A DNA stretch of 64,000 nucleotides from Gavia stellata (taxonomy: Eukaryota; Chordata; Aves; Gaviiformes; Gaviidae): positions 9,211,034-9,275,033 of the forward strand of contig NC_082618.1 of the NCBI RefSeq assembly GCF_030936135.1. The letters run 5' to 3'. Below, piece after piece: positions 1 through 62,803 of this stretch (its first letter is position 1; each line of letters opens with the position of its first letter). The notes beneath the pieces were generated by a model. The model worked only from the letters and a program-made list of their open reading frames with translations. It was not told the origin of the DNA and ran no database searches. The position numbers were made by a program, and so were the translations under genes.

Positions 1-22885
<22,885 letters not shown>

Positions 22886-27960: not shown

Positions 27961-28595
27961 TATCGAGTGTATTTATAACCCGTGCAGCTGAACCGGGCGG
28001 GGGCCAGCACGTGGCTGTTGGCAGTGGCCCACGTGGCCTCCCCGGCAGCTCAGCGTGGCCGGCGGGGATTGTCCTTCGCCCCTTTCCGTGCGCTGCCCCC
28101 ACCCCAGCACCCTGCACCCCCGGGCCAGGCACCCCGGGCTCGCGCCGCTCCCGGAGGGGTCGGCTCCTGCACTCCCAGCACAGGTCAAGGCCACGGGCGC
28201 GCCCGCAGCCCGGAAAACCCACGGCACGGGGAATAACGGGCCAGTCCCGGGCGCCGAGGCCGGGCAGGGGTCACGCTTATGGGGGAAGGCAGGTGGGCAG
28301 CACAAGAAAAAAAAACCCTCTATTTACTCAATTAAATGATGCACTGTTCAGTCAGCAGCTTTTTTTTTAAGTCAGTCTTTATCCCCTCTGGAATAAAGAG
28401 CTGATTATAAAACCCCTCAGATTAAAAAAAAGCTTAAGGTATTTTAATGCAAAGCTCCTCTGGGGCACATCAGACCCTCCTGCTTTATCAAGAAGCTTTG
28501 GTTTTGGGAAGGGTCACCTGCATCAGCTCCACCGACGCTGGTGCTCCAGAAGACGACCAAAGTACTCCTCCAACAGCTCACAGGAGCCCCCAAAT
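27961..28595. other. GC-rich intergenic segment
   Basis: Composition jumps from nearly all A/T to strongly GC with many CpGs at about 27975-28270. No exon is recognised. The open frame from 28447 that runs into the pinopsin remnant starts in noncoding sequence. Confidence 0.5.
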
Positions 28596-28599
28596 AATG

Positions 28600-29159
28600 G
28601 GACACCCCCCCCCGTTATTTCGATGGCCCCCAGGGGCCCCACCAGGCCCACGGGGAATGTACCTGTCGGTGGCTGTGCTGATGGGCATCGTGGTCTCTGC
28701 CTTGGTTGTGAAAGGCTTGGGCATCGCGGTTGCCATCAGGTGCAAGAAGCTCCGGTCGCCTCTGAACTACACCCTGGTGAGCCTGGCGCTGGCCGACCTG
28801 CTGTGACGCTCTGCGGCAGCTCCATCAGCCCCTCCAACAACATCAACCGCGTCTGCGTGTTCGGCAAACAGCTGTGCGAGCTGGAGGGCTTCATGGTCTC
28901 CCTGACAGGTAAGGACACGAACCTCGAGACCTGGCTAGGTCTTTGGTGAGTGCCATTGCATTTAGCAAAGAAGCAGCTTTGGGGACCGTTTCATCAACTT
29001 GCTGCTTCTCCTAAAGGCAACGCTTTCATGCAGGATGTACAACTCACGTCCACCAATGAAGCCATCGCCAGCCAGCCAGCTCTCGCATCCCTGCCCTCCT
29101 ACTTCTCCAGGACCACCACGGTTTACAGTCCAGTCATCTACATCTTCATGAACAAACAG
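28600..29159 (+). pseudogene. pinopsin pseudogene (two exon remnants)
   Basis: Pinopsin is a Gt-coupled blue-sensitive pineal opsin. The first remnant (about 28600-28908) matches the N-terminal region through TM1 and TM2 (VAVLMG, KKLRSPLNY, LALADLL), then after a frameshift VTLCGSS, SNNIN and CELEGFMVSLTG, ending at an intact GTAAGG donor. A single missing G near 28800-28804 puts TGA in frame at 28804-28806. The second remnant (about 29053-29159) matches the TM7 exon: LASLPSYFS, TVY, MNKQ, ending at an intact GTGAGA donor. Only about 144 bp separates the two pieces, so the middle exons are gone, and no C-terminal exon is seen. Key residues are lost: the TM7 retinal lysine is Arg (AGG, 29109-29111), NPxxY reads SPxxY, and the TM1 Asn 1.50 is Lys. 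The order matches chicken pinopsin as I remember it better than rod or cone opsins or VA opsin. Confidence 0.88.
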
Positions 29160-32100
29160 GTGAGAGAGAAAGTCATCAGCTAACGAAACCACTTCACTGG
29201 GGCTTCTGGAGAGCAACTTAACGGCCTCATAAAATGTGGAGGAACCATCTATCCTATCTGGAAGCGTAGACGCAGGCTTGATCCAGGAGTTACTGTATAA
29301 ACAGCAACATTTTGGGGAATAAAATGGAAAGGGAGGAGGCAGCCTCTGAGCCCGAACAAGAGCGCATTACCTGCTTCCATGATTTTATGGGGTCAGGCAA
29401 CTTAATTTTAGATCACAAACGCAACACGCAACGCAAACAGAATGAAACTTTTATTGTCAATGAACTGCCAGGGTCTGCAAAGAGTTGGGCTGGGAATTGA
29501 TACAGATCTCCCCCAAAACACAAGGGGCTGAGGAGCGCCCACCCCGCAGCCTCTGCCTCCAGGTCTCACGGCAGACACAGGTTTTCTTCCACGACACGTA
29601 ACCTGTGTTTTCCCTGCCCGGTTTCAGAGCTGCCGGCTGAAAACGGTGTGCTGCAGTTACCGCCCCGGGGGGACAGGAAAAACTGCTCCGGCTGCAGCCG
29701 GCCCCTGCGCAGGCATCGCTGCAGAGGGGTCGTGGAATAAGGCGACACCGTCTCACCCCGTCTAACTGCTGCCAGATTCTGCCTGCAGCGTCGGCTTGGG
29801 GTTGGGCCTGTCCCACCCAGCCGTATTCAAGACGAGCAGGGAGAAGGGCCCGGTGCTGTAGCTGCTCCCCACGCCCCGGAGATGGGCGGCTCTTGGAGGT
29901 TAGAGGGGCCCCCAGCAGCCCTCAAGGTGCTCCCCAGAAAGACACGACATTGTCTTCTTGTGGCAGAGGAGCCGCCCCGTTATGGGATAAACTGCAAACT
30001 TCTATTTCACTCTCCTAAGGAAACACTGCTCCCTTTCAGCTCCTCACCTTGGGGAATCAAGAAAAAAAACAACAGCAATTTTTCCTCGACGCAAAACATC
30101 CCAAGTTGCTGTTCAGCCCCGGAGTCAGGCTGAACGCTGTCCGGCTCCGGGGCCACCTCCAACGCGGTCCGTAGGACAGAGCTGCGCGTTCGCCATCCCT
30201 AGATAGACCGAATCCTATTTGCATTGCCCAAACTCGCTGTGCAGTTTGAGGTCAGGCTGTGAAACTGGCAAAAAACCAGCAGGTATGTTAAAGTGCAGAC
30301 GGCGTTAATAAACGTTAATAAACATGGACAAGTTCACATGCATCTGTTTTAGCGGCTGATAAGAGGGTTCGACAGAAAACACTTCACCTCCCACTGCTCC
30401 AGCTGGCACTTCTTCTCTCTCGGCAAGTGCCACATATCCCATCATAACAGAGAGCAAGAAAAAACCAAAAACAGTTCAAAGACATAAAATTATGTATTTT
30501 ATTTATATTTAAGGCAATAAGGGAAGGTCTTAAATCCACTGATTTGCCAGCAAGGGTGAAAACACAGGTTGTAACAGGCCCTGAGGACAAGGCACAGCAA
30601 AGCCACCGCTGCCCGAAGGGCCGGGACCTTAACAGAAAGCAAAAGACGCCAAAACCTGTAAGAAAAAACCCCAAAAGGCAAAAAACCTCCATGGGGTTCC
30701 ACAGCTACACACCTGATCTCGAATCTCAAGACGCAGTGTTTATCTACACCAGCTGCAACTGTGCTCTGGACAGCGATGCAGCTTATGGGATTTAGGAGCC
30801 TATGGATAAGGCTTCCAAGCGCAAGGTTTAGACAACGCTGCAGACAGCAATCCCCTGAAAGTCTGTTTCATTAAATTCCTCTATCTTAAAAAAAATGCTA
30901 TCAGCAGCTTGTCTGCCTTCATAGCTAATTGTCTTTCAAAATTCGATTCTGAACATTTCCACTGCTTTCAAAAGGAGACTGATCCACAGTCACAAGATGT
31001 AAAGGTTCACTCTCCCCTCCGCAGTTCTGTTTGTATCAATCGCACATCATCCCCAGGGACGATCCCAAAACACGCCTCGCTCCTCTCCTCCTCCCGCCAT
31101 CTCCCACAGCTTTTGCTGTTGCAGGAAACCCGTGACAGGGTTGGAGGGAAGCACTGCTAAAAGTTGTTCACCACCTCGCTGAATTGCCTCTCCAGCATGC
31201 AGCCCCCAACCTGCTAACAGGCAGTCAGGAAGGCAATTTGCACCGGCACAGATTACAGTGAGATTTGGGGAACAAGGTTTTTTCTTTCTATCTGAGATTC
31301 TCTGCTCCGAAACAAGAACAAAACAAAAAACCCAAACCCAAGATGAGTACGATGACAGGTACAAGGGAGCTGAAACACGGCTCCTTAGAGAACAAACATT
31401 TGCTTTTCTTCTTGTCTTCACCCAAACTTACCGCAGGGTCCTGCAAGCACCTCCAGAGAAATACAGTGTCTACAGGCAGCGCCGCATCCCCGGTGCAGGG
31501 GGACAGGGCGCCCGTCCTCACCCCCATCCCCGTGTCCCGACCCCCCTCGCTCTGCTGGCTTCCCTACGTGCAAAATGGCTCGCAGGCTGGCGGCTCAGAG
31601 AGGAATTAGAACAGCTCAGTATCGCTGTTCTAATTTAATTAACTGGCTTTTCATTCTCTGGGAAGCTGAAAAGCCCCCTCTGATCTTCTCTGCTGTCTTT
31701 GGCTGGTCCTTGTTTAATTGTTCCTGTTAATTACAGCTTTTGTGTCCATGCTTTATGTTATTAGGATGATTTACATTTGTGCTAAACTTAAATCTGGAAA
31801 AGCACAAGCTGCTGAAAAACTGAAATCTCCAACTGCTGCGTTCTGGCCTCAATAAGGAGAGCAGACAGGCTATGGGACTACTTGAAAGGCTCTCTACCAA
31901 CAGAAATAAAAATTCTCCACATTAAGATTAAAAAAAGATAGGGAGATGGTTCACAGTCTGCTCACCATTTGGTCTTACAGATAAAATAGAAAAAGAAATC
32001 CAAGAAGCTAAGGAGATTTCACATGATGCAAACCAAAGTGGTATGTAATTATGTGCATGGAAAAATGCATGTGTGCTTGCTCCACTCCACCACACTGCTG

Positions 32101-45700: not shown

Positions 45701-48700
45701 CCAGCCTTCTGATGGGAGCACTGCTGGGAAAAACGTAACTGCAACAACACTCCATCTTCCTGACTCAAAAGTACCTTCAATAGAGCAAGCACATTTACCT
45801 GAAACCTGAATACCTGATCCTGCATCTTCCGGTAACTGTTTCTGTAAAAATCCTTCACAAGCATCTTCTAATTTGCCCTCAGCATCTGAGGTCTGAAGGG
45901 GAAGAAAAAGGAAGTGAATTCAATTTCTCATAGGCAAGCTATGAAGGGTAGGACAACTCGCACGGGATGATGTTCACAATAATTAGGATGGAGAGACAAA
46001 CTTTAAGAGCTTATCAGCAAACAGCATGGACTGAATAGTCCATACAATAGTTTTGAATCTTCAAGAAATGAATGAAGATTGTTTTAAGACTATTGAGTAC
46101 TATAATTGATAGAGCTGTGAAGGAAAGGCTGAGATTATCAACTGCCTAAAACTTCTCTCAACCACAGATTATGCGATTTCCTAGTAAAGAAATTAAGAAA
46201 ACATGCCCCTGCTGTTTTGGGAGGCTGGGTGTTTCTGGGGTTTTGGGTTTTTTCTACACCCCCACCCCCCCCCCCCCACTTTGGGCAGGGGTGTGTGTTT
46301 TAAAGGAACAGGGTTAGAATTTTCTTTCTTTTAGATAAATATTTGTAGACATTATTTCAAAAGAAGAGAATAAAAAAACTGTCATTCTCACACTTTCTAC
46401 AGCTCTTCTTCAAATCAAATGGGAGCATAATAAAGTCATGTTGTGTAACTTACGTCCAAAGTTCCTGACACAGACTCCATTCCTGTCTTTTCTGTTATTT
46501 TTACCTCTAGTTCTGAACTTCCCTGAGTAGTAGCATGAAGGAAATAATCAGGAGTCAAGAATTCTTCTGACACATCAGGAGATGAATTAAGGGAATAATG
46601 TAATTCTCTTGAATGTCCCTGTGAAAGACATCATCATTTGAGATGCTTTCTCCACTATTAAAGAACATAGATTTTAGTGAATAATGTTAAACAATACTGC
46701 ATCAAATTGAAATTATATTTAACTTGATCACTCCTGAGTTTCAGCCTACCTCCTGCTCCTTACATTACCTTGATGGTTTATAGAACCAAACAAAAAAAAA
46801 ACCCAGGGGGAGGAAGGGGGATTGTTAGTCAGATCACAACTGAAAAAGATCAGCTGTCTTGGTAGTTCAGTGTGCAACACGGAGAGACCAGGCTAAACTG
46901 TTTTACAGATAACTAGCTGCAACTAGATTTCCTGGATTACTATACATACTCTAGAGAGATTCTCAACTTGTTGAGGAAGGACTGAATTCTTATGAACGGT
47001 TATTCCAGACTCTGCTTGTTCGTCTTGTGATGGCGACTGGCAACTTCTCCCTAGGATGTCAGAATGGAACAAAACTATTAGACAAAAAAATAATATGAAC
47101 CACTGATGGAATATCAATGAGAGCAGACAGTAAAACCACATTGTCTGTCAGGAATATGGAGAAGTAATGACATTTAAATGCTCACATCATTAATCTAGGC
47201 ATGTGAAGCTTTCCTTGTTCCTTTACCCATAACTTACAAAAGCACTACCCGCTATGCTGCTACAGAAAAAGCATCTCTGTAGTCCAACTGAAAGAAATAA
47301 AGTGTGAAAGGATGCTCATGGATTTGAAAGCTTTGGGTCTCCCATGCTGGTACATGGTAATCAATGATGATGAAGGGTCTTCCAAGCTCACTGGACATTA
47401 CCTCCACCTATTAACATGTAATACTCATCTTAGTCTATTATTTATGTTCACCAATGACTGAGTGATTGACCTTCACCAATGACTGAGTGATTGACCTTCA
47501 CCAATGACTGAGTGATTGACCTGCTTTGGGGGCAAGACTCTGGAAGATAAAATTGACAATTCTGGTAATAAAATCACAGAAGCTGAAACCTGCTGGAGGA
47601 TAGAGAGACAAAAAGAGAAGAAATTATTTTTTGTTTTTTCAACCTTACCTCCAGAACTTCTGAATGCAGACTCCAGATCACTCTCCTCAGATTCAGATCT
47701 ATCCTCACTGCCCAGATCCCAAGGCTCAACATTATCACCTGTCTGCCACCTATATCTTTGTTGGTCTTGGCTTTTTTGCACTCTAACAGTGACATGTTGA
47801 AAGGCTTCCTTTATACTCTCTGCTTCACTTTCAGATGTACATTCACTGGCTGGATATAGAGAGCGGAGTTCTAGTTGTCCTGAGGCCACTCTTCTGGCCA
47901 TTTGCTTTACTTCAGCTACACAAAAAGAACAAAATTACCAGTTCACACAACAGAATCTGGACCTTCAAAGCACTCCCTATGTTTCATTATGTCTGCAGAG
48001 TTGGAAATGCTGAAGTTACAGCCTGTTAAAGCCTGACTCCTTTATCATCAAAAGAGCTAAACACTTCCTTCCATTTTAAGGAAAGCTTAAAACCTGCATA
48101 AATTGCTATGGATAAGTCTTTACATGAACAATTTTTCTGAGTTTGCATTCTCTATTATTCGTGCCTGTACTGCCATCCACTGGTCATTGCTATACTACCC
48201 TTTCTAAATTTAACTGCTGTCCCTCCCTTACATCCTCCAAAACAGGGCTAGAAATTCCTTGAACTTTATAATCATCTTAATGTGTCTGATTATTTTATGC
48301 CCTAAATGTGCAAGACACAGGATCCTACTCATTTGGTTTTCATCCAAGAACAGCCTAACAGAGCTTCAGCAATTAAGGCGCACAGACCTGTTTCAAGTAA
48401 CAAAATGTGTTAAGTTTTAACACATCGCAGTAAGACTTGCTAACATTAATGCAGAGTTAACACCAATTTACTTACTCCTCCATTCTGATTGCATCATCCT
48501 ACTCTCCTCACTTATTTTTGTACCGTAAATTTCAGATCTTGATTTTGGATAGCACCTATAATAAATCATTATGAAATGCATCAAACTGTTAATGCACAAG
48601 CCTATTGTTAAGTATTCCCCAGTCAGTAAAAGACTAGAAGTTGTTTTAATGTTCATTAAAATGCTGAGAGCACACATGTTCTAAGAACCCAACAGAACTA

Positions 48701-51700
48701 GCAGACTGAGCTGTCAGAAGCTTAGAAAGCACAGACAATTATTTAGGTCTACTACAGATTAACCAGACAAGCTGTACATTAAAATCTACATTTCAAAAAG
48801 CTGTCAACTGCCTTCAGATAATATATCTATGTAAACACTAACAGACAATGAATGCTATGTAGATGTGTTTTATTCAGATCAGTAAGCTGATCAGTAGATA
48901 ACTGAAGATATTCAGAACTTCAGACTTGGGTAACAACAATCCTACCACCAACCGATTCCAATCTAGAGTTTGTTCACTTGACCATCTAACCACACGTCAG
49001 CATCTGGCATATTTATGTTCTAACCAAGTATGTCCTTTACCAACAGGTCTTACTGATCCAGCTGGGTCATGAATCAAAAACTGCAACAGTTTTCCCGACT
49101 GATTTGACCCAAACATTGAAGGACGTGCCTGCCTGTCCCCATCTTTCCAATTAATAAGATACATTAATTTGCACAAGTTTTGCCAGGTATTTCTAATATG
49201 TACTTTCCACCCATACTTAGAAATATAAAGGGGCAACATAAAAAAGCACAGCAAACGTAAGAAAGTAACATACGCTCTGTTGACTGCTCTACTCCCACAG
49301 CCCCTAACATAGGTCCTAGTCCTACACCTACGAAAGCCAAAGCATTTCTACTGAGAATTGAATGAGGCTGTGCAGAGAGGAGAACCACCCTTACTAGTAA
49401 CCTATTAGGTTGCTCTCCTTAGGCACTGTTACAGTTTTGGACCACTGACCTCCATTAGAGAGGCATGTGGAATCTGTCTGAACATCACTCTTTAAAAGTA
49501 ACTGCCTGGTCGCAGCAGTTACCCTGTCAGCTCTGCAGCTGACAATGCCTCACAGTAGGGTCCTCCTTGGACAGATGGCTTTTGGCTTACTGAAGAAACA
49601 TTTAATGCCATCCTTGATCCTGGATGCGACTACTTTTGACAGTGGCTGTATCAAGATGAATCGGCTAGAATTAACTCTTCTGTGAATACGATCAAAAACT
49701 CACCACCTCTCTTCTTCACTTCCACTTGCTGCAGAATGTGAATCACCTCCTCTCTGACATTGCAAGTTGAACTTTTTTTTGCATCTTACAGATACACGTG
49801 GGAGTAAATGCTGAAATGAGTCCAACAAGCCATGATTCAGCACACATCGGGCGTTCTGGTAATTACTAGTTGAGCTGTCTATGAGATATACTAAGAATTG
49901 GACTGTGCAAACTTTATTCCCCGGGTTTTATTTTAGTAGCACTGCTCATGAGAAAGGATGACAGCTCCAGGCCTTAGCCTAGTAAAAACTCTGCCCTGGA
50001 TTTACAGTAGGTTTCATATGTATGCAGGCAGACTATCGTAACATGTAGTTCCCAGGGGAATGAGTGGACCTAGATGACTCAAGATTATTCCTACAGCAGA
50101 TATGTACATGAATTTCTCTTTTCCTCTTTGGGCTAAGCATGTCAACTACTTATATTTAATAATGAAAATGATCTAGAAGCCCTTACTAATGACAGCTTAG
50201 ACCTCCGTAACTAAGTATACAAACAAAAGCCTTTCTCCGCTTGACCTTTTCCTTGACAGTCCCACTTCTATTTTAGTACAGGATTTTATTCCCTCCCAAC
50301 CCACTGGACTAGTATTTTGCTCGGGCGGTGGGTGGGGAGAAAGAAGAAATACTACTATTGCACTGCTGAGCTGACTATTTTCATTCCTATATATAATGCA
50401 CATGGTATGCACAAGTATTTTAAAAGATAGATTCATCCCTCCTCTTGGACACCATCTGTAACTACATCCCTTTACCTGCTAAGGAATACAGAAGTGATAA
50501 ACACAGTCACGCTGCTCAACACTTTACCTCATGGTCTAGGCTCGTTTGATCATCCAGGCTTTTCACCACACCAAAGCTGAGATCATGACAGTTGTTTTCA
50601 TTTTTAGTCTTACTCATTTCATGAAAGCACTTCCACTTTTCATTTTGAATTGCCTCCATTTCCTTTACTGTCTTTGAAACAGCTTGGAAACTCTCTCCAC
50701 CGAATGCTCCTTGTGCCTGACATGTCATCAGTGGTGGAATATAGTCACTTGATGGTGGACCTACAGCCTTCCATAAAAAAGTATTAACTCCAGAAAAAGG
50801 GTTACTGGTATTTTGGGAAGTATCATCAGATCTGTTCCAGTGTCTGTCTTGAAAAAATCGCTTAGAAAGCTGATTCATTCTAATTTCCTGGAGCAGCTTC
50901 TTTTGCTTTTCAATGGCCTCTAATTTGTCCAGTTTCTCCTCTGTTCTGCACAGGGAATCTGCTGCCTGCTGCAACATGCTTTGAACAATCTTTAAATTAA
51001 GGACACATTTGCTGATGTGCTGCTCATTCTGGGTCAGACTACTCATTCTTCTCCCAGGATCTCCTCTCACCTGTGCCAGCATGCATAGGTCAGAGGCCTC
51101 ACTTATCCTCTCCTCCTCTTCTGTAGCATACTCTGTACCCGATTCTGAAAAGCCACCTTCCTCATAAACTGGCCTTTCCTCACAGTGCACTCCAGGGGAT
51201 GCATATAGGTCTCTGAGGGTAGCCTCATCATCTTCCTTTTGCTGCCTTTTTTCATCCTTTAGAGTTTGACCTAATCCAGCGCCTTCTTCCGGGAAGTCTT
51301 CGTGAAGTTCTGGATAACTGGCAAAGATTTCATTGATTTCAAAGCTACAGAGGCTGTCATCCACATCACTGACACTGAGGGTCAGCTGGAGTTCAGAAGC
51401 TACATCACGATTTTGGTCCTGTGCAACTGGCTGTAGACTGGTTGATGCCTCTTGGTCCACTAAAGCACTACTCTTCTCAGGGAAATGAGAGTATTTTGGG
51501 GCAGTAGAGCTCTCTGAAAAATTTAAGTGTTAAACCGTTTCTCCAGATGTCCATCAAACACGCTGCTTTCGTACATTTAGGAGTTAACATCTTCTAGAGA
51601 TTACATGAGCAGCATTTAACACCTCTGCTGAAAACAGTATGCCTGAACTTCAAATATTAACCAGACTTATAGTCTTGAGTTTTCATTAGCAATTAGGGTG

Positions 51701-54700
51701 GTAGATAGAAAGCAGTTAGATTTGGATTCTATTTTCAAACTATGTCATAAAATCTGTAAGCACTCACATTTTAATTATTTATATTAGACCTTTATGGACG
51801 GAGCAACATACTAAGTGAAGGACACATGGCATCTTGCTAGAAGAAACTCACCAGCCTCTGTTATCTCTTTTCCCTGCAATTCCTGTGTTCTCTTCTGGTA
51901 GCTAAAAGCTGGTGCCAAACAGATGTTCACATCTGCAAAAACAGTGGGTCTTTGTGCTTTTGACATTTCATCGGCATGACCAGTTTGAGACTTAACTAAG
52001 TCCTGTAATATAAAAAACGGAATAAAAGACAACTATATTTGACAGTTCAATGTCTCTACTTATTCTTTTAAGGTGGTTTGCCTCCATGATCAGAAAAGGA
52101 TACTCAATGTTTAGATTGCCTCCCACCTAGACTTAAGCAGAACAACTTGAATCTGAAAGGACACGAAACTGCCCTTTCAAACACATGAAAGGACACAATC
52201 CTGGAAGTCACCTTTAAGTCATTTTTCAGTATATATTGAATATCCTGAAGTTTCATGGAGCGGTTCTTCTGTTTAGGTTCTAGCCCTGACTTTATGATAT
52301 TGTAATAGGGCATAGGAAGTCTGACATCTGCTTCTAACTGTTGTCCTGAAATTATAAGCTGTTTAATAACTGAGTCTTCAAGACCTTTCCAGGGAGGGGT
52401 CTCTGCAAGACATAAATATAGACTTTACATCACAAGCTGTGTATCAATGTTAATGAAAAAGAAGAAAAAAGAAAAAAGATAAAAGATTCAGAGATACGGA
52501 AGCATTATTGTCTGCATGCTCCCTGATTTACAGCCACTGTCACAAACCAAACGAGCACTGAGTCCAGTCTGGCATCTCCTCCCTATCATATTTCAACAGT
52601 GGATGCTTTAAAGGGAGCTGACAGCAATCTCTAGAGGATAGTTACACTGTAAACCATGCTCTGGATTCTTCATTACCAACCAGCTAATAGAGGGTTTAAT
52701 TTTTAGGGTAATTGTTTATCCCATTTCACTGTCAAAATAGTCAAAGTCAATACATAAAATACATTACATTAGCTGTAATAAAAATAACAATACATTATCT
52801 CTTAAGTTATCTTAGTGATCAAAAAGATGAAAGCTGCACAGGCTCACTTTGTGCATTGCAAAGAGTTAACTGAATGTTTTGCTGTCCTCGTATGAAGAAG
52901 AAAGGTAAACAGCAGAAAAACACCATTACACAAAACTGTATCTCTCTAATACCAGCCATTAATCTCATCCTTTAGTTACGCAATTTTAAGTTTTCTGATT
53001 ACATTTTACAAAAAGTTTACAGTAGTCTTTGCTATTGTCATTAAGGTTTGCTTTTTTTGCCTGGAGGGTTCCTTCTCCAAGTTAATTCTGAATGAGCCAT
53101 CACAGCAAGGTTTTATCCAGTCACGTAGGGGAATTAAACAGACATCGGGGGCTGACAGTCTGCACTGAAAACATTCTCTATATCTATAAACCTATAGATA
53201 TACCTGTCAAGGCCTCCTGCACTACTGTACAGAAGCTATAAATATCCGATTTGACCGTGACAACTTTTTCAAGGATTACTTCAGGAGAGCACCACCTATA
53301 CAGCTGGGCTGGGACAGGAATACGTGTCAGATCACTGTGTTCTCCACCATCTTTGCTGTATAAAGGAAAAAAAAGTTGTAAATTGGGACATACAGCACAC
53401 TCAACTAGAAAGTATATCTTTTAGAATTAAACATCCGAGTTTGTTATATCTGCTTTTAGTTTAAATACCTAAAAGGTCCAAAGTATACCTGCAAATAAAA
53501 GTGCGTAGTATTTCCACAGCAATGTTTTTTGGCACATTACAGCAAAGACTTTCTGGCAAAAGTAACACCTCCTTTAACAAATTTACACTCAAAAAGAAAA
53601 CAGAGAAAGTTGAAAATTTCCCAATAGAAATTTTACAAACAACTCTTTCGCTCTGGCCAGTGTTCTCTGACCATGGACAAAATACAAGAAGGTGCCATCT
53701 AGCCTGTCAACATTTATTTTGCAATGTATGCTTATATCTAGAAGATAACATCCTCCTCACATTTAACTATAGGGTTTTTTTGTTATTCATTTCACAGTAA
53801 GCTGTACCTGAAATAGCCAAGAAATCGCAAGATTTATTAACAAATTGAGTTTGCAAGGAGATGAGGAAGTATCTTTGCTCCTTTCAGGATGTTACCATTG
53901 GCAAATTTTTGTTTATTATCAATTTTACTCTTTCTTTACAGTCTAACCAGCCATTTACTTCCCTTCTAACCAGACTGCACTATAGGAAAGAAAGAAAGAA
54001 ATACATATAAGTAATAATTTACCTAGATGAAATTAATGGTGTCCCTCATAAAAGAGATACTCTTTTTGTCACTGGTGGCACTTAATTACTACCAGTTCAA
54101 TGAGGTGTGGAATCTTCAACCACTTTGGGTAAGCCTCCATAAGCACAAGTTCGGTAATACAAGAGGAGACTTAAATTATTTCCAGCCCAGCACAGAATTA
54201 GTGACTCAAAGAGGAATTTCATCTCTGTTCTGTAAGATTATGTTCTGTTTCTCTATGATGGTATTTTTATACTCCAGTGAAGAGCTGCTTCTCTTACTAG
54301 TTTCTATTTTCAGATACTTACAGAAACTAAGTCCACCTGAAACTTGCCATACTGCTTGTAGCAAAGTTAATGTACCTGAGCAGTAATAATTTGGAGTTCT
54401 TTACTCCTATAACTCTTGTTAACTGACTCAGAGGCAGGAGTCCCTAGTCATCTAAAGAGGGGCACTTCAGCAGAATTCAGCACTAAATTTGACTTTACTT
54501 GTGTTTGTCCCTTTCACAGAAACAGTGAGGAAGTTCTTTACCTCTCTATCATGTATTCCAAGTTGCATAGCTTTGCCTCACCAGAAGAAACAATTTGAAT
54601 AGCATAGGAAGTAACTGAACGGTGAATAAATCCACGGGAGTGCAGAAAACGCAAAGCGTCATTAATTTGAAGCAGCACATGCAAGATCGTCTCCATGTGC

Positions 54701-57700
54701 AGTACTGGGAATTCCGTACGCTGAAAAAAACCAAACAAACCAGAATTACCAAATTTGCACGGCAGATCTTTAAAGCATGATGCAGGGGAAATCTCTTATT
54801 GTACAGAAGGCAGCAAAGAAAGCAAACATAAAACATACCGTAGTAAAAGTCAGACAAATTGCACTTGCTAAATAATGTTCGTTCTCAATACCAAACCAAC
54901 TAATAATACCTTAAAAAGTAATTAAGAAAAAAAGATATTGACTATGCCAAAATTCACTCTGAAGCAGCATGAACTCTTAGAATTTCTTGCCTTCGACTGC
55001 AATTTCTCCAGTAACTTAGATGTCTGCGATCAAACAGCTAAAGAAATAAAATAATAACTCAATTAACTGCAAAAAAGGAAGAGAAAAATATTGAATGACA
55101 AAACCAAAACACAGATCAGTTGATTAAAACAAAACAAAAAAAAAAACAACACAAAACCAACCCACAACTGAGTTCCAGCCTTCACTTTTATACACAGGCA
55201 GTTTGCAATGTACTACTACAGGCAAATATGCAAGGGCAGAAGCTGGTCTTGCTACATTTGCAGTACACAACCACATGCAGAAGATTAAAAGTTTAATTTA
55301 ATTTAACAGCAGCCATTTTAAGACTGTCACCAACCAAGAAAATCAATGCAATTGCACCCGAACATGAACTGAAGTATTTGCCAATTATAAATGTTACCAG
55401 CTTACACAGAGTATCTGATACTGTGCAATGAAGTAGAAACCCTGATACGCAGACTGATGATTTTGTTGTCTTGTTCTTTGAGTAAAGATGGCAGACGTAT
55501 TTACTAAAACTTCTTACTCTCAACTAATTACTATTTAAAAATCAAGTATTCCAATTACCCTTTCATGAAGGATGCTGTACAAAGAACCAAAGTTAACCCT
55601 TTCATATACTAAACGGGTTGTCTCCAAGTCACTAGACAGACAAACAGACATCAACTGTAGCAAATGAGGATGACGGAGTTTACTGCAAAGGGAGAGGAAA
55701 AAAAAAATTGTAAGGCAAATTTGAAACTGAAAGAGTCCTGGCCTTCTCAGTGTTTTTATCAATACAATGTGAATGCTTCTAACTTTTCATTAAAATACCC
55801 CAAATTTTAAAAGAACCATAGATTAGGAGGCATTCAGGAAACAGTGCTTACTGTCACAACTAGGAGAATCTATAAATAAGTCATCCAAGATGTGTGGAAT
55901 GAAGCATTCATCCAGAGATACAAGAAGAGAGTATCATCTTCTCCTGTATTATCCACTGAGGAGCAAACAGAGTGGGAAGAGACAGGAGAAGAAAGAGACC
56001 TGTATTTCTCATTTGGAGAGAAAGTGCAACCACAGCCTAACAGTCCTCCCAAGGTTAATCACATTTCCTCACATCACTGGAGACACCCAAACCCCAGGAG
56101 CACTTGTGGCTACTGCACATTCTTTCTTACCTACTATGTTCCTGCTCTGCAATGAGAAGATCAGCTAAGCGTAGTTTACTACAGTTCTGATGGGGCTCAA
56201 AGCTGAGTTCCTTCACTGTAACTCTGCTGCCTCCCCATAGTAAGCTACAAGGAGAAGAGGAGGAATTTCTACGAGATGCTTTCTGCAGTATTTTTTTCCA
56301 GTTACAGGATTAGTTACAAATAATTTTGTAATTCTGAAATGCTCTGGTGCTGTCTCCTACTGTTAGTAACATTACTTTGATGATCCCGGCAATAGCATAT
56401 ACTCTTTCAAATTGACAATAAATTCTCATCCTGTTAAAGCCTGGATGTGGCAGGACAGGTTTGCTGTCCAAAGACGCTACCTTTCCATGACCCAAGGTAA
56501 AGAACAAGGACACTCAAAAACTCCTTTCACTAAAGGCCATCAGCCCATTGTGATACAAGCCAGAGCTCTGGGAAGATTAAATCACCAATTTGTCAACTCT
56601 CTGGATGCCTCTGAGGCACAACAACTTGCTGCACAATACAAAAGATTAAAGAAAAGGTGCAGTCTACACTTGCAACTCTCATTTCACCATAGGTTTGAGC
56701 AAGTGGACTGCAGACATGCATATCCAGAGGCCTGAAGTCTGACCCAACAATTACAAGCATTAAACACTGAACAACGGGATCTGTGCAACCCCAGCAATGT
56801 ATTTCCCACCACAAAATCAATCACTACTGAAACACTGCTATCAATGAATAACCATAGTTGGGTTAATATTGCTGGAAAGGACAAGAGCGACCTACAGATA
56901 CCAAGGGAGTCTAAAGAAGATACTGATCAGTGAACTGCAGAAAACAAGTAGCAAGCAGAAAGCAGTGGATGAATACAGAACAGAAAGAAAAACTATCCAA
57001 ACAAAGCATCTGGCACAACAACTTGCTGCTTAATAGTAACAGACACACACTAAGAGGGGCTAAAATCTCTTTGATTCCACTTACTTTGTCATGATCATGT
57101 ATGGTCCAACATGGTAAGAAAATGTTGGTTCATCACCTGCCTGAACCACCTCTTTTTCCCCAATAATAGGGAGAGATGCCAAGTACCCTAGATGTCCACT
57201 GCCTGCAAGATAAAACTGAAACAACACCAGGGCATAACCAAAAGGAATATGCAACAGCTCCCAAGATTCGTCACATCTGCCGCAAGCTCACTACAAACTT
57301 GAGTGCAATCACTGCAATGGGAGCATCAGCCAAAGCATCAAAATGAAATGTTAAGATATCTATGTCAAAAGCTTAACTTTCTAGTGAAGCTGAAACAGGG
57401 AAAGCAGAAACAGTCATTAACAAGAACTCCCACAGGGGACATTTAACAAGAGAGTTTCTATTGCCTGTTCCAAAACAGCTTCCTCTGATAGGGCATACTA
57501 ACAACTAAAGGCCTGAATATTTGTGCTCTCCAAAGGTTTTTTTCTTCACCACTTCAGAAGAAACAAGAATGCACTTAAAATTAAAAATAACACAGGTGGG
57601 GTAATTACTGTGAAGAATATATGACTCTGAAAAACTGTACTATTATCATTAGAAAACCATTATCCATAGCATCTTACCTTCCCAAAACCAAAGCTGTAAA

Positions 57701-59913
57701 TGTTCTTGGCTGCATTAGCTCCACCTTTTAGAAATCTACTCAGAGGACTGTCAACATTTCTAAATATCAAAAACATAAGCAATAAGACTAAGTAATATGC
57801 CAAGGCTTTGAGTAAAATACAAAAAAAAAAAAAGAGAGCGAGAAAAATGCAGAAGTTCCACAACAGCCATGTATTTCAGATGTTGCATTTGACTGGTCCC
57901 ACACAAAACGTGTAATGCGGATGCTGAAATTCCAGATTATTGTGCAACTCATTAAAACTTTTTAGGTACACCGTTATGCCATGTATTTGTGTAAAGCAAA
58001 ATAGACAAAAAAATATACACACACACACAGAGGCATCCTGCATCCCTTTTTGTTCACAAGTATGTATTTTTCCTAACATGTATCTGACACAAAAGCTCTT
58101 GAAACAGTTGGAAACACACCCCCAGAAGATTTGCAGTGACCTTAAAAGGTCAAGAAACAAACTACTTCATGTTACCACCATTTTAATACTATTAAAATTC
58201 AGTACTTCATATTGCTGGTTTCAAGAGTATCTCTTAATATACAGGTATTTACAACTATCAAGTTTCTGTTTGGAACTCTCACAAGAGAAATAAAAAGTAT
58301 CATCATTCCTAACACTCGTTTTCAATTCCTAATGGTTTTAAATCTGATAGTATCAAAAAGAAACATGTTAATTTTAAGATAAGAGAATATGGAAGTAAAA
58401 GTCCTTGTAGCTCAATTCCTCACTACTTGAGAATATATTCTTACCCTTGAACAAGGCCACCAAACCTAGACGGATTGCAGACCAGCACTTTCGATGAGCC
58501 AACCTTCCTGAGTAGATCAGAGGGAAAATTTTGAATGGCAGCCTGCATGTGGAATGTACAACGCTGTATAAACTCCAGCATCTAGAGAGGAGGGGGGAAT
58601 GAAAAAAAACACCAACAAAAATTACTTCTGAACTGCAAGATAAACCATTTTAAATTAACAGATCATGACTACTGAAAAAATAACTAGTTACTTGCAATAT
58701 TTAAATAGACATTTCAAGAAACGGATACACAGAAAACCTTGAAGAAAATCAATTACAGGCAAGTATAAGAGAAAGCTTACGTCAAACACTAGATGACTAA
58801 CTTTGAAGACATTCACCCACTGAAAATTGTAATATCAGGTTTTATTTTAAGAGAAGCATTGTAATAACAAGAAACAGGAGTATTACGAGTTTTAAATCAA
58901 TATCGCAGTAATGAATAAGCCTTCTTGATACCGCATTTTGCTACCATGCTAGCAAAAATGACACATTTGCTGACACTTCATGCACAGACTGAGATACACT
59001 GGAAAACTACTTCAGGTTTACTCCCAAATTGCACATACATGCAAACAAACCACATACATCAGGGATCGAAGACAAGGGCCCTTCATTCTCCTCACTGCAC
59101 ACTTAGACATAAAGGTCCCAACAAGTTACAGACACGCCCCTGCACCTGAACAAAACCTTAGTTAAATAATCTGAATCATGAGGTCTTCAAAAGACCATTA
59201 CTGATGTTGACAAACAATGTTAAATAATTTTTCTAACATGTGAAAGCCAAGAATTTCTCCCTGGAATGTTGGACTGTCTTCACTTTAAGATGAAGATGTG
59301 AGCACGTACCTAGCACGTATTCAACATGTATGACACACACATACCTGAGCACTGCTTTCTTTTCCAGCTGACATAGCCCAGTACTGAGGATTTTTGCCAT
59401 CTTTATCATGAAGTCTCAGATCACCTCCTTCATCCAGTAACTTGCTAAGAATCCACTGATTTCCTGAGAATGCAGCTGCGTGGACTGGGGTGCTTCCATC
59501 GTAACAGCGACTGAGGAACATTAAAGCAGAATTGTTTCAACCTACCCCTACCACACTCAACCAGCTGTGCCTCTGGGGAAAAAAGTTTATGTACTCCCAA
59601 ACAACAACAACATATACCACGAAATAAGGAAAATTAGGCACCTGCCTCCCTCTGAGGATCTTTGGCTAAAATACCAACATGTATCTTAAGCACCTCTTCA
59701 GTTATATACAGTGAATATTGTGTATTACATTGACTAAAACCATTAAAAGATTAAACATTAATTTCCATTTAAGAAAAAAAATTATTTTTATACTTAACTG
59801 ATTAGCATCTGAGCCATAATCCAACAGCACATCCACTATTTTACCAAGACCTAGCAGTGCAGCAGTGAAGAGAGAAGTTTGGCCCATGGAATTTACAGCA
59901 TCAACAAAAATAC
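38240..59913 (-). CDS. TEX14: TEX14, germ-cell intercellular bridge factor (both ends incomplete)
   Basis: TEX14 keeps intercellular bridges between dividing male germ cells open by binding CEP55 and blocking abscission. Twenty-five exons join in phase without a stop (3990 nt, 1330 residues), in transcription order: 59799..59913, 59345..59510, 58445..58581, 57678..57759, 57085..57215, 56131..56244, 55559..55682, 54542..54720, 53204..53355, 52212..52402, 51852..52002, 50528..51513, 49704..49810, 48476..48555, 47649..47915, 46950..47050, 46454..46618, 45799..45892, 44969..45032, 43589..43651, 42365..42492, 41365..41555, 39671..39722, 39125..39196, 38240..38317. Domain order is ankyrin repeats, kinase-like domain, coiled coil with the CEP55 motif, and a long Ser/Glu-rich tail. 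Human TEX14 is about 1,500 residues, so perhaps 45 N-terminal and 50-100 C-terminal residues are missing. The initiator exon was not found up to the window end. Confidence 0.92.
41365..43651 (-). CDS. TEX14: TEX14 C-terminal exons (TDIQDLSSI region)
   Basis: Exons 43589..43651 ([20 protein letters not shown]), 42365..42492 ([37 protein letters not shown]) and 41365..41555 ([34 protein letters not shown]). The DIQDLSSI and [11 protein letters not shown] blocks are strongly conserved with mammals. Confidence 0.92.
44969..45032 (-). CDS. TEX14: TEX14 small exon
   Basis: 64-bp exon encoding [20 protein letters not shown]. The acceptor chosen (CACAG at 45033-45037) is the only one of three nearby AG sites that keeps the reading frame. 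Conservation is weak, so this exon is less certain than its neighbours. Confidence 0.65.
45799..47050 (-). CDS. TEX14: TEX14 C-terminal exons (EEFLTPD region)
   Basis: Exons 46950..47050 ([14 protein letters not shown]), 46454..46618 ([18 protein letters not shown]) and 45799..45892 ([16 protein letters not shown]). The EEFLTPD core corresponds to DEFLTPD of mammalian TEX14. Phases are 1-0, 0-0 and 0-1. Confidence 0.85.
46265..46277 (+). repeat. poly-C run in TEX14 intron
   Basis: Thirteen consecutive C residues in a C-rich context; a likely site of length variation or sequencing error. Confidence 0.9.
47447..47521 (+). repeat. 25-bp perfect tandem triplication
   Basis: Three identical adjacent 25-bp copies (each begins TTCACCAATGACTGAG) in a TEX14 intron, about 130 bp downstream of the donor of exon 47649..47915. 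There is no spacer, so this is not CRISPR-like. Confidence 0.97.
47649..47915 (-). CDS. TEX14: TEX14 C-terminal exon (EVKxMA region)
   Basis: 267-bp exon encoding [18 protein letters not shown] and [17 protein letters not shown], then an acidic Ser/Glu run ([16 protein letters not shown]). It matches the EVKEMA...GQL block of mammalian TEX14. Confidence 0.88.
48476..49810 (-). CDS. TEX14: TEX14 exons downstream of the central exon
   Basis: Exons 49704..49810 ([25 protein letters not shown]) and 48476..48555 ([24 protein letters not shown]). The second aligns with the SSEIY region of mammalian TEX14. These two exons are required to carry the phase from 0 to 1 before the exon 47649..47915. Confidence 0.8.
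50528..51513 (-). CDS. TEX14: TEX14 large central exon with coiled coil and CEP55 motif
   Basis: The 986-bp exon encodes about 329 residues. It opens with [15 protein letters not shown] and an acidic region with [16 protein letters not shown], then a coiled-coil helix ([17 protein letters not shown] and [18 protein letters not shown]), then [13 protein letters not shown]. The last matches the AxGPPx3Y element through which TEX14 binds CEP55 (minus strand, 50741..50767). The exon acceptor follows a TTTTTCAG and the donor is CATGAG/GTAAAG. Confidence 0.93.
50741..50767 (-). other. TEX14: CEP55-binding motif AxGPPx3Y (within TEX14)
   Basis: Codons for A-V-G-P-P-S-S-D-Y, an exact match to the AxGPPx3Y pattern reported for mammalian TEX14. 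In mammals it competes with ALIX and TSG101 for CEP55 and so prevents ESCRT recruitment. Confidence 0.9.
51852..52002 (-). CDS. TEX14: TEX14 exon after the kinase-like domain
   Basis: 151-bp exon in phase 0, out phase 1. It encodes [33 protein letters not shown] and [11 protein letters not shown]. It corresponds to the poorly conserved segment after NDLK in mammalian TEX14. Confidence 0.85.
52212..56244 (-). CDS. TEX14: TEX14 kinase-like (pseudokinase) exons
   Basis: Exons 56131..56244 ([27 protein letters not shown]), 55559..55682 ([20 protein letters not shown]), 54542..54720 ([39 protein letters not shown]), 53204..53355 ([18 protein letters not shown]) and 52212..52402 ([23 protein letters not shown]). 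The fold is a protein-kinase one, but the catalytic-loop HRD reads His-Arg-Ser and the DFG position reads Asn-Leu-Glu. Phosphotransfer is therefore not expected, as in mammalian TEX14, which is classed as an inactive kinase. Confidence 0.93.
57085..58581 (-). CDS. TEX14: TEX14 linker exons before the kinase-like domain
   Basis: Exons 58445..58581 ([17 protein letters not shown] to GGLVQG), 57678..57759 ([23 protein letters not shown]) and 57085..57215 ([35 protein letters not shown]). For the last exon the acceptor at 57215/57216 was preferred over a TTGCAG 12 bp further in, because only it keeps the frame and restores FYLAG after GFGK. Confidence 0.9.
59345..59913 (-). CDS. TEX14: TEX14 ankyrin-repeat exons
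   Basis: Exons 59799..59913 and 59345..59510. The first encodes [20 protein letters not shown] and [15 protein letters not shown]. The second encodes [38 protein letters not shown] and SAGKESSAQ. Together they give two to three ankyrin repeats with the usual TxLHxAA-type helices, nearly identical in pattern to mammalian TEX14. Confidence 0.95.
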
Positions 59914-60387: not shown

Positions 60388-60600
60388 ACCACTCAGCCCG
60401 TGTTCTCTCCCTCCCAGACCCCCAAAAGAGGCCGGGAACGGTCATCAATGGCGGGCGGCTCCTGCACAAGCAGCACCACCCGCCCGCTTCGCGCTCAGGA
60501 GAGAACACCTCGCTCCTCCTCGTGGCTTGTGACGCCGTTCAGGTGCGATCACTCTCCTCTAGTGACCAACTACAGAAATGATCCCTGAAAGTATAGTCTT
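60388..60600 (-). ncRNA. SNORD3: U3 small nucleolar RNA gene, copy 1
   Basis: Box C/D snoRNA that guides early 18S pre-rRNA cleavage in the SSU processome. The minus strand begins AAGACTATACTTTCAGGG, the universal U3 5' end, followed by box A (GATCATTTCT), box B (GAGCGCGAAG), box C (TTGATGACCG) and terminal box D in GGCTGAGTGGT. The 213-nt length compares with about 217 nt in human. It is expected to be an independent RNA polymerase II unit of snRNA type. The full ends are inferred from the human U3 ends. Confidence 0.93.
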
Positions 60601-61483: not shown

Positions 61484-61696
61484 ACCACTCAGCCCGTGTT
61501 CTCTCCCTCCCAGACCCCCAAAAGAGGCCGGGAACGGTCATCAATGGCGGGCGGCTCCTGCACAAGCAGCACCACCCGCCCGCTTCGCGCTCAGGAGAGA
61601 ACACCTCGCTCCTCCTCGTGGCTTGTGACGCCGTTCAGGTGCGATCACTCTCCTCTAGTGACCAACTACAGAAATGATCCCTGAAAGTATAGTCTT
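61484..61696 (-). ncRNA. SNORD3: U3 small nucleolar RNA gene, copy 2
   Basis: 213 nt, identical to copy 1 over the RNA by eye, with the same 5' end and boxes A, B, C and D. Its promoter differs from the other two copies between about -180 and the octamer and beyond -250, but keeps the octamer at the same distance. Confidence 0.93.
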
Positions 61697-62590: not shown

Positions 62591-62803
62591 ACCACTCAGC
62601 CCGTGTTCTCTCCCTCCCAAACCCCCAAAAGAGGCCGGGAACGGTCATCAATGGCGGGCGGCTCCTGCACAAGCAGCACCACCCGCCCGCTTCGCGCTCA
62701 GGAGAGAACACCTCGCTCCTCCTCGTGGCTTGTGACGCCGTTCAGGTGCGATCACTCTCCTCTAGTGACCAACTACAGAAATGATCCCTGAAAGTATAGT
62801 CTT
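62591..62803 (-). ncRNA. SNORD3: U3 small nucleolar RNA gene, copy 3
   Basis: 213 nt, differing from copies 1 and 2 by one base that I can see (GGGTTTGGGAGG instead of GGGTCTGGGAGG in the 3' stem). All boxes are intact. Confidence 0.93.

Follow-up and report, generated by a model that had tools for sequence, protein, structure and literature searches.

A decayed pinopsin gene next to DOC2B in Gavia stellata, very likely a unitary pseudogene in a bird whose visual opsins look complete

In Gavia stellata, the gene of pinopsin, an opsin that acts as light sensor in the pineal gland of birds, has decayed into a remnant, and it is very likely (probability about 0.88) that this remnant is a unitary pseudogene at the ancestral pinopsin locus adjoining DOC2B. 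It lies in a stretch of 64,000 bases (the window; contig 25:9211034-9275033 of a 1.32-Gb assembly with 1185 contigs), for which a first-pass annotation had already described a decayed pinopsin. That observation is confirmed as real, and it was understated: seven disabling lesions and three further changes were found in total. The remnant has neither a retinal lysine in TM7 nor an open seven-helix frame and, judged by its sequence, the gene as read could not yield a retinal-binding seven-helix receptor.

A working version of the chicken pinopsin sequence was used as query, and residues are numbered by the chicken protein (351 residues). In a sequence search of the window, the query matched three pieces of the forward strand (28566-28946, 29043-29177 and 29619-29762), and a frameshift-tolerant alignment, from which the residue identities per exon in Table 1 are taken, scored exon 1 at 343, exon 4 at 141 and exon 5 at 136. 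Controls elsewhere in the window (60 places for each exon) reached at most 37, 41 and 41, mononucleotide shuffles (40 for each exon) at most 45, 36 and 33, and as the scores of the remnant are far above both, a chance match is excluded for all three exons. Among six working opsin references, pinopsin is the best for the remnant, with 172 summed bits versus 126 for the runner-up, and together with the position downstream of DOC2B this agrees with the identity proposed in the first-pass annotation; also the alignment to chicken pinopsin suggested there bore it out, with three exon pieces far above chance and an inactivated gene. Within this set of six, to which VA opsin, parapinopsin and parietopsin do not belong, an origin from another opsin is rejected. 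Long stretches of the frame remain readable, and the remnant has in common with the functional chicken pinopsin the exon order, the N-terminal SSNSSQ, the C-terminal end and the retained counterion region CELEGF, whereas all lesions belong to the remnant of Gavia stellata.

Table 1. Features of the window (positions counted from its first base)
Feature	Position	Strand	Remarks
Further C2-like frame	6978-7259	+	Upstream
DOC2B exons (C2B part), open frames	19223..22440	+	Upstream of remnant
Pinopsin remnant, whole	28563-29765	+	Downstream of DOC2B gene
Pinopsin exon 1 remnant (N-terminus to TM3)	28563..28908	+	81/110 aligned residues identical
Gap piece replacing exons 2, 3, most of exon 4 and introns	28909..29039	+	About 131 bases
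Pinopsin exon 4 end (TM7)	29040..29159	+	25/39 aligned residues identical
Broken exon-5 splice acceptor, CGG	29619..29621	+	Paralogues: AG in 5/5
Pinopsin exon 5 remnant	29622..29765	+	24/48 aligned residues identical, from acceptor codon on
Probable TEX14	50519..59536	-	Ankyrin-like frame 59324-59536, long frame 50519-51529

The lesions begin at the place of the chicken start codon, where the remnant has TAC (28563-28565). Exon 1 contains three frameshifts, near 28617, 28646 and 28801, and has lost one codon in TM1; this set of lesions was the same at four of five frameshift penalties, and at the weakest penalty the change in TM1 became two extra shifts. The TGA at 28804-28806, on which the first-pass annotation had relied, comes after the third frameshift and indeed terminates the TM1-TM2 frame. 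About 43% of the protein is gone, from TM3 to the TM6-TM7 loop: residues 116-265 (150 of the 351) remained unmatched in the window at E values up to 1, a laxer run gave chance-level matches only, and outside the window only opsin paralogues and other receptors were found for them among the assembly matches listed. About 131 bases separate the end of exon 1 (28908) from the first recognisable codons of exon 4 (29040-29043); the loss of the middle exons stands as it had been claimed, and the size of 144 bp given for what remains of them does not. In TM7, the position of the retinal lysine is occupied by AGG (Arg, 29109-29111), and this lysine is kept in all six other opsins read in the genome (RH1, RH2, SWS1, the VA-like opsin, SWS2 and LWS). 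Furthermore, Asn1.50 in TM1 is replaced by Lys (VVKG versus VVNG in the chicken reference) and NPxxY has become SPxxY (YSPVIY versus YNPIIY). These three substitutions had been read correctly in the first pass, and so had the survival of both donors, GTAAGG after 28908 (from 28909, exon 1) and GTGAGA after 29159 (from 29160, exon 4). Of the three splice sites left, it is the exon-5 acceptor that is lost, with CGG where RH1, RH2, SWS1, SWS2 and LWS all carry AG, and the frame of exon 5 is open as far as the natural stop TAA (29763-29765). Exon 5, the TAC at the start, two of the frameshifts, the missing TM1 codon and the acceptor CGG are additions to the earlier description, and the many lesions accumulated, with the loss of this acceptor, give no support to its view that the decay is fairly recent.

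It could be argued that transcription and splicing still go on at the remnant and yield a regulatory RNA or a short membrane peptide, as the two donors are intact, exon 5 has an open frame with an in-frame substitute AG six bases inside the exon that could act as acceptor, and an ATG in the TM1-TM2 frame (28608-28618 region) opens a stretch up to the TGA. However, the start codon at the chicken position is lost, exon 1 is frameshifted and the original acceptor of exon 5 is no longer present, and such a residual function is very unlikely. The lesions were read from the assembly, in which some sequence may be lacking (an unplaced contig of 204 kb carries LWS and SWS2), and one frameshift is at an error-prone C run near 28605-28617, which could mean that pinopsin is in fact intact and was misassembled or miscalled. 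But the seven disabling lesions differ in kind (substitutions have changed the retinal Lys to Arg, the acceptor from AG to GG and the start codon, and about 150 codons are deleted together with the introns), the window contains no N, and no other pinopsin copy was recognised among the matches listed, which makes such an error extremely improbable.

The neighbourhood of the remnant supports a unitary pseudogene. When the three frame pieces of DOC2B were joined by hand, the best solved chain was 4ldc (DOC2B, E 2e-64). On the other side, the ankyrin-like frame has a weak Ank_2 match (E 7.4e-6) slightly below the curated cut-off, which fits TEX14 without proving it, and the long frame of this probable gene has no Pfam match. 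According to PMC5629816, pinopsin is flanked by DOC2B and TEX14 in chicken and by DOC2B in flycatcher, and in the spotted owl both neighbours are kept and pinopsin is absent. As DOC2B is upstream just like in chicken and flycatcher, the remnant is most likely the original gene and hence a unitary pseudogene. The window also holds a perfect 25-base tandem repeat with three copies (47447-47522) and, on the reverse strand, three full-length matches to U3 snoRNA in tandem units of about 1.1 kb (60388-60600, 61484-61696 and 62591-62803).

Alternatively, the remnant could be a dead duplicate of a pinopsin that is still working elsewhere in the genome. In a genome search with pinopsin, 116 of 757 candidates were scored and 119 matches listed, the strongest multi-exon loci of which were classified by comparison to the six references. 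Among the matches listed, neither a second pinopsin nor, as the first-pass annotation had wanted to see checked, an intact copy was recognised in the 1.32-Gb assembly. The pieces in the window had identities of 57%, 74% and 58% in this search, and as exons of paralogues reach up to 65% (contig 1167), identity alone is not decisive; exon 5 does not appear among the listed matches and rests on the search of the window. The strongest multi-exon loci were RH1 (contig 12), RH2 (contig 30), SWS1 (contig 4) and SWS2 and LWS (contig 1167), and of two more, the one on contig 9 is a VA-like opsin and the one on contig 11 an opsin that is more distant. Pinopsin was the clear best match only at the window locus among the loci compared. 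On contigs 9 and 11 it was ahead narrowly at 37-52% identity, as is expected for opsins lacking their own reference, and the rest of the listed matches were mostly receptors with 18-35% identity. The place of LWS and SWS2 on an unplaced contig indicates that the assembly may be incomplete and could in principle hide a working copy, but the exon order of the remnant is kept, it lies downstream of DOC2B where chicken and flycatcher have their single gene, as described in PMC5629816, and a second pinopsin was not recognised among the matches listed. A dead duplicate is therefore very improbable.

The visual opsins of the genome appear to be in good order. RH1, RH2, SWS1, SWS2 and LWS each give a match for one exon after the other, and within the exons these matches are free of stops (two of those for RH1 extend into introns, where stops occur). 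The exons of RH2 are 89-100% identical to the chicken RH2 used as reference, and all five opsins look exon-complete. AANAT, the enzyme of the melatonin rhythm, is open in all three exons, with 77-91% identity to the chicken reference, and looks kept. With no other pinopsin recognised among the matches listed, visual opsins that look exon-complete and an open AANAT, a unitary pseudogene and not an assembly error is the most likely explanation of the lesions. SWS2 and LWS are arranged in tandem on their unplaced contig (203807 bases), apart from the chromosome-sized contigs. Position 83 of RH1 is Asn (AAC), in contrast to the Asp of bovine rhodopsin, and Asn83 in the rod opsin is a change linked to dim light in other vertebrates; no bird survey of this residue as a marker of lineage or dim light was found in the literature as far as the search covered it.

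The complete look of the five visual opsins and the open AANAT speak against light sensing having been lost in general, and as the visual opsin set looks complete, pinopsin does not seem to have gone in the course of a wider loss of eye pigments. Direct light sensing by pinopsin in the pineal may no longer have been needed, or other opsins and the eyes may have assumed this task, and under such a relaxed need pinopsin would have drifted and gathered lesions, with the exchange of the retinal lysine for Arg being one of many. A reduced pineal or an altered light ecology may lie behind the loss, as proposed with the first annotation. Xenopus tadpoles with pinopsin knocked out have a paler skin during the light phase and move less by day, which in PMC12836464 is read as raised daytime melatonin, and the same effect would be expected in the bird if nothing compensates. 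The species probably represents a further bird lineage with dead pinopsin while the five visual opsins look complete. This would make it harder to tie the loss of pinopsin in a simple way to light sensing being lost in general, and it would offer a natural test of the role of pinopsin in the bird pineal.

By its opsins the genome is that of a bird, and two genes place the lineage within the neognaths. Residues 84-94 of SWS1 are FICCIFSVFTV, a string that Table 1 of PMC3637589 lists for great crested grebe, hoatzin and Mississippi kite and that may be shared by other birds; for palaeognaths, F86, C90 and M93 are given in the same paper, and for two ptarmigans FISCILSVFVV. STK33 has been described as intact in three palaeognaths and as decayed in all 28 neognaths studied (PMC4509753). 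In the present genome, STK33 (contig 17:13611700-13628600) is in pieces: the frame changes within one exon, HRDL has become HREL, and the N-lobe had no match at the locus (7.0 kb read, with a human sequence as reference). This SWS1 motif and the decayed STK33 indicate a neognath. An owl is unlikely since SWS1 is present, provided that owls lack SWS1 as stated in PMC5629816, and likewise a penguin since RH2 is complete, provided that penguin RH2 is dead (PMC4322438). The motif also differs from that of the two ptarmigans (PMC3637589), so the bird is probably not a grouse. Judged from these sequences, the loss of pinopsin is probably independent of the losses described from birds in the papers cited here, as the lineage is a neognath outside the groups for which these papers give pinopsin pseudogenes. 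That it is an unreported as well as independent loss, in a neognath lineage with complete visual opsins and an open AANAT, is slightly favoured. If this is true, the bird is a knockout of pinopsin made by nature, its pineal has to manage the timing of melatonin without this opsin, and a wider loss of opsins, like in owls and penguins, would be no explanation.

The loss is probably a further case of a known kind that has been seen before in several bird groups. Published pseudogenes or losses of pinopsin concern penguins (PMC4322438), owls (PMC5629816), and palaeognaths and two grouse (PMC11893379), and outside birds the gene has been lost in mammals, crocodiles, snakes, most teleosts and some caecilians, according to the latter source, which also cites Borges 2015 for a loss in 6 of 48 birds. 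The pseudogene of the emperor penguin is disputed (PMC4595237). The owls are close to the present case, as pinopsin was likewise lost, in their case between DOC2B and TEX14, by pseudogenization in the barn owl and by loss of the gene in the spotted owl; also in the barn owl, the start codon is mutated and exon 1 has several indels, but the start codon place reads ACA instead of TAC, exons 2-5 are still recognisable whereas exons 2 and 3 are gone here, and owls are without SWS1, which is present in Gavia stellata (PMC5629816). In Adelie and emperor penguins, pinopsin has frameshifts like the remnant described here, in the Adelie penguin also a stop, but according to PMC4322438 their RH2 is a pseudogene and LWS, SWS1 and SWS2 could not be found; in Gavia stellata, RH2 is complete and these three genes are present as well. 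Ostrich, emu, kiwi and two grouse have pinopsin pseudogenes, which in the palaeognaths are fragmented as is the one described here (PMC11893379), and it is the SWS1 motif that sets Gavia stellata apart from the palaeognaths and two ptarmigans given in PMC3637589.
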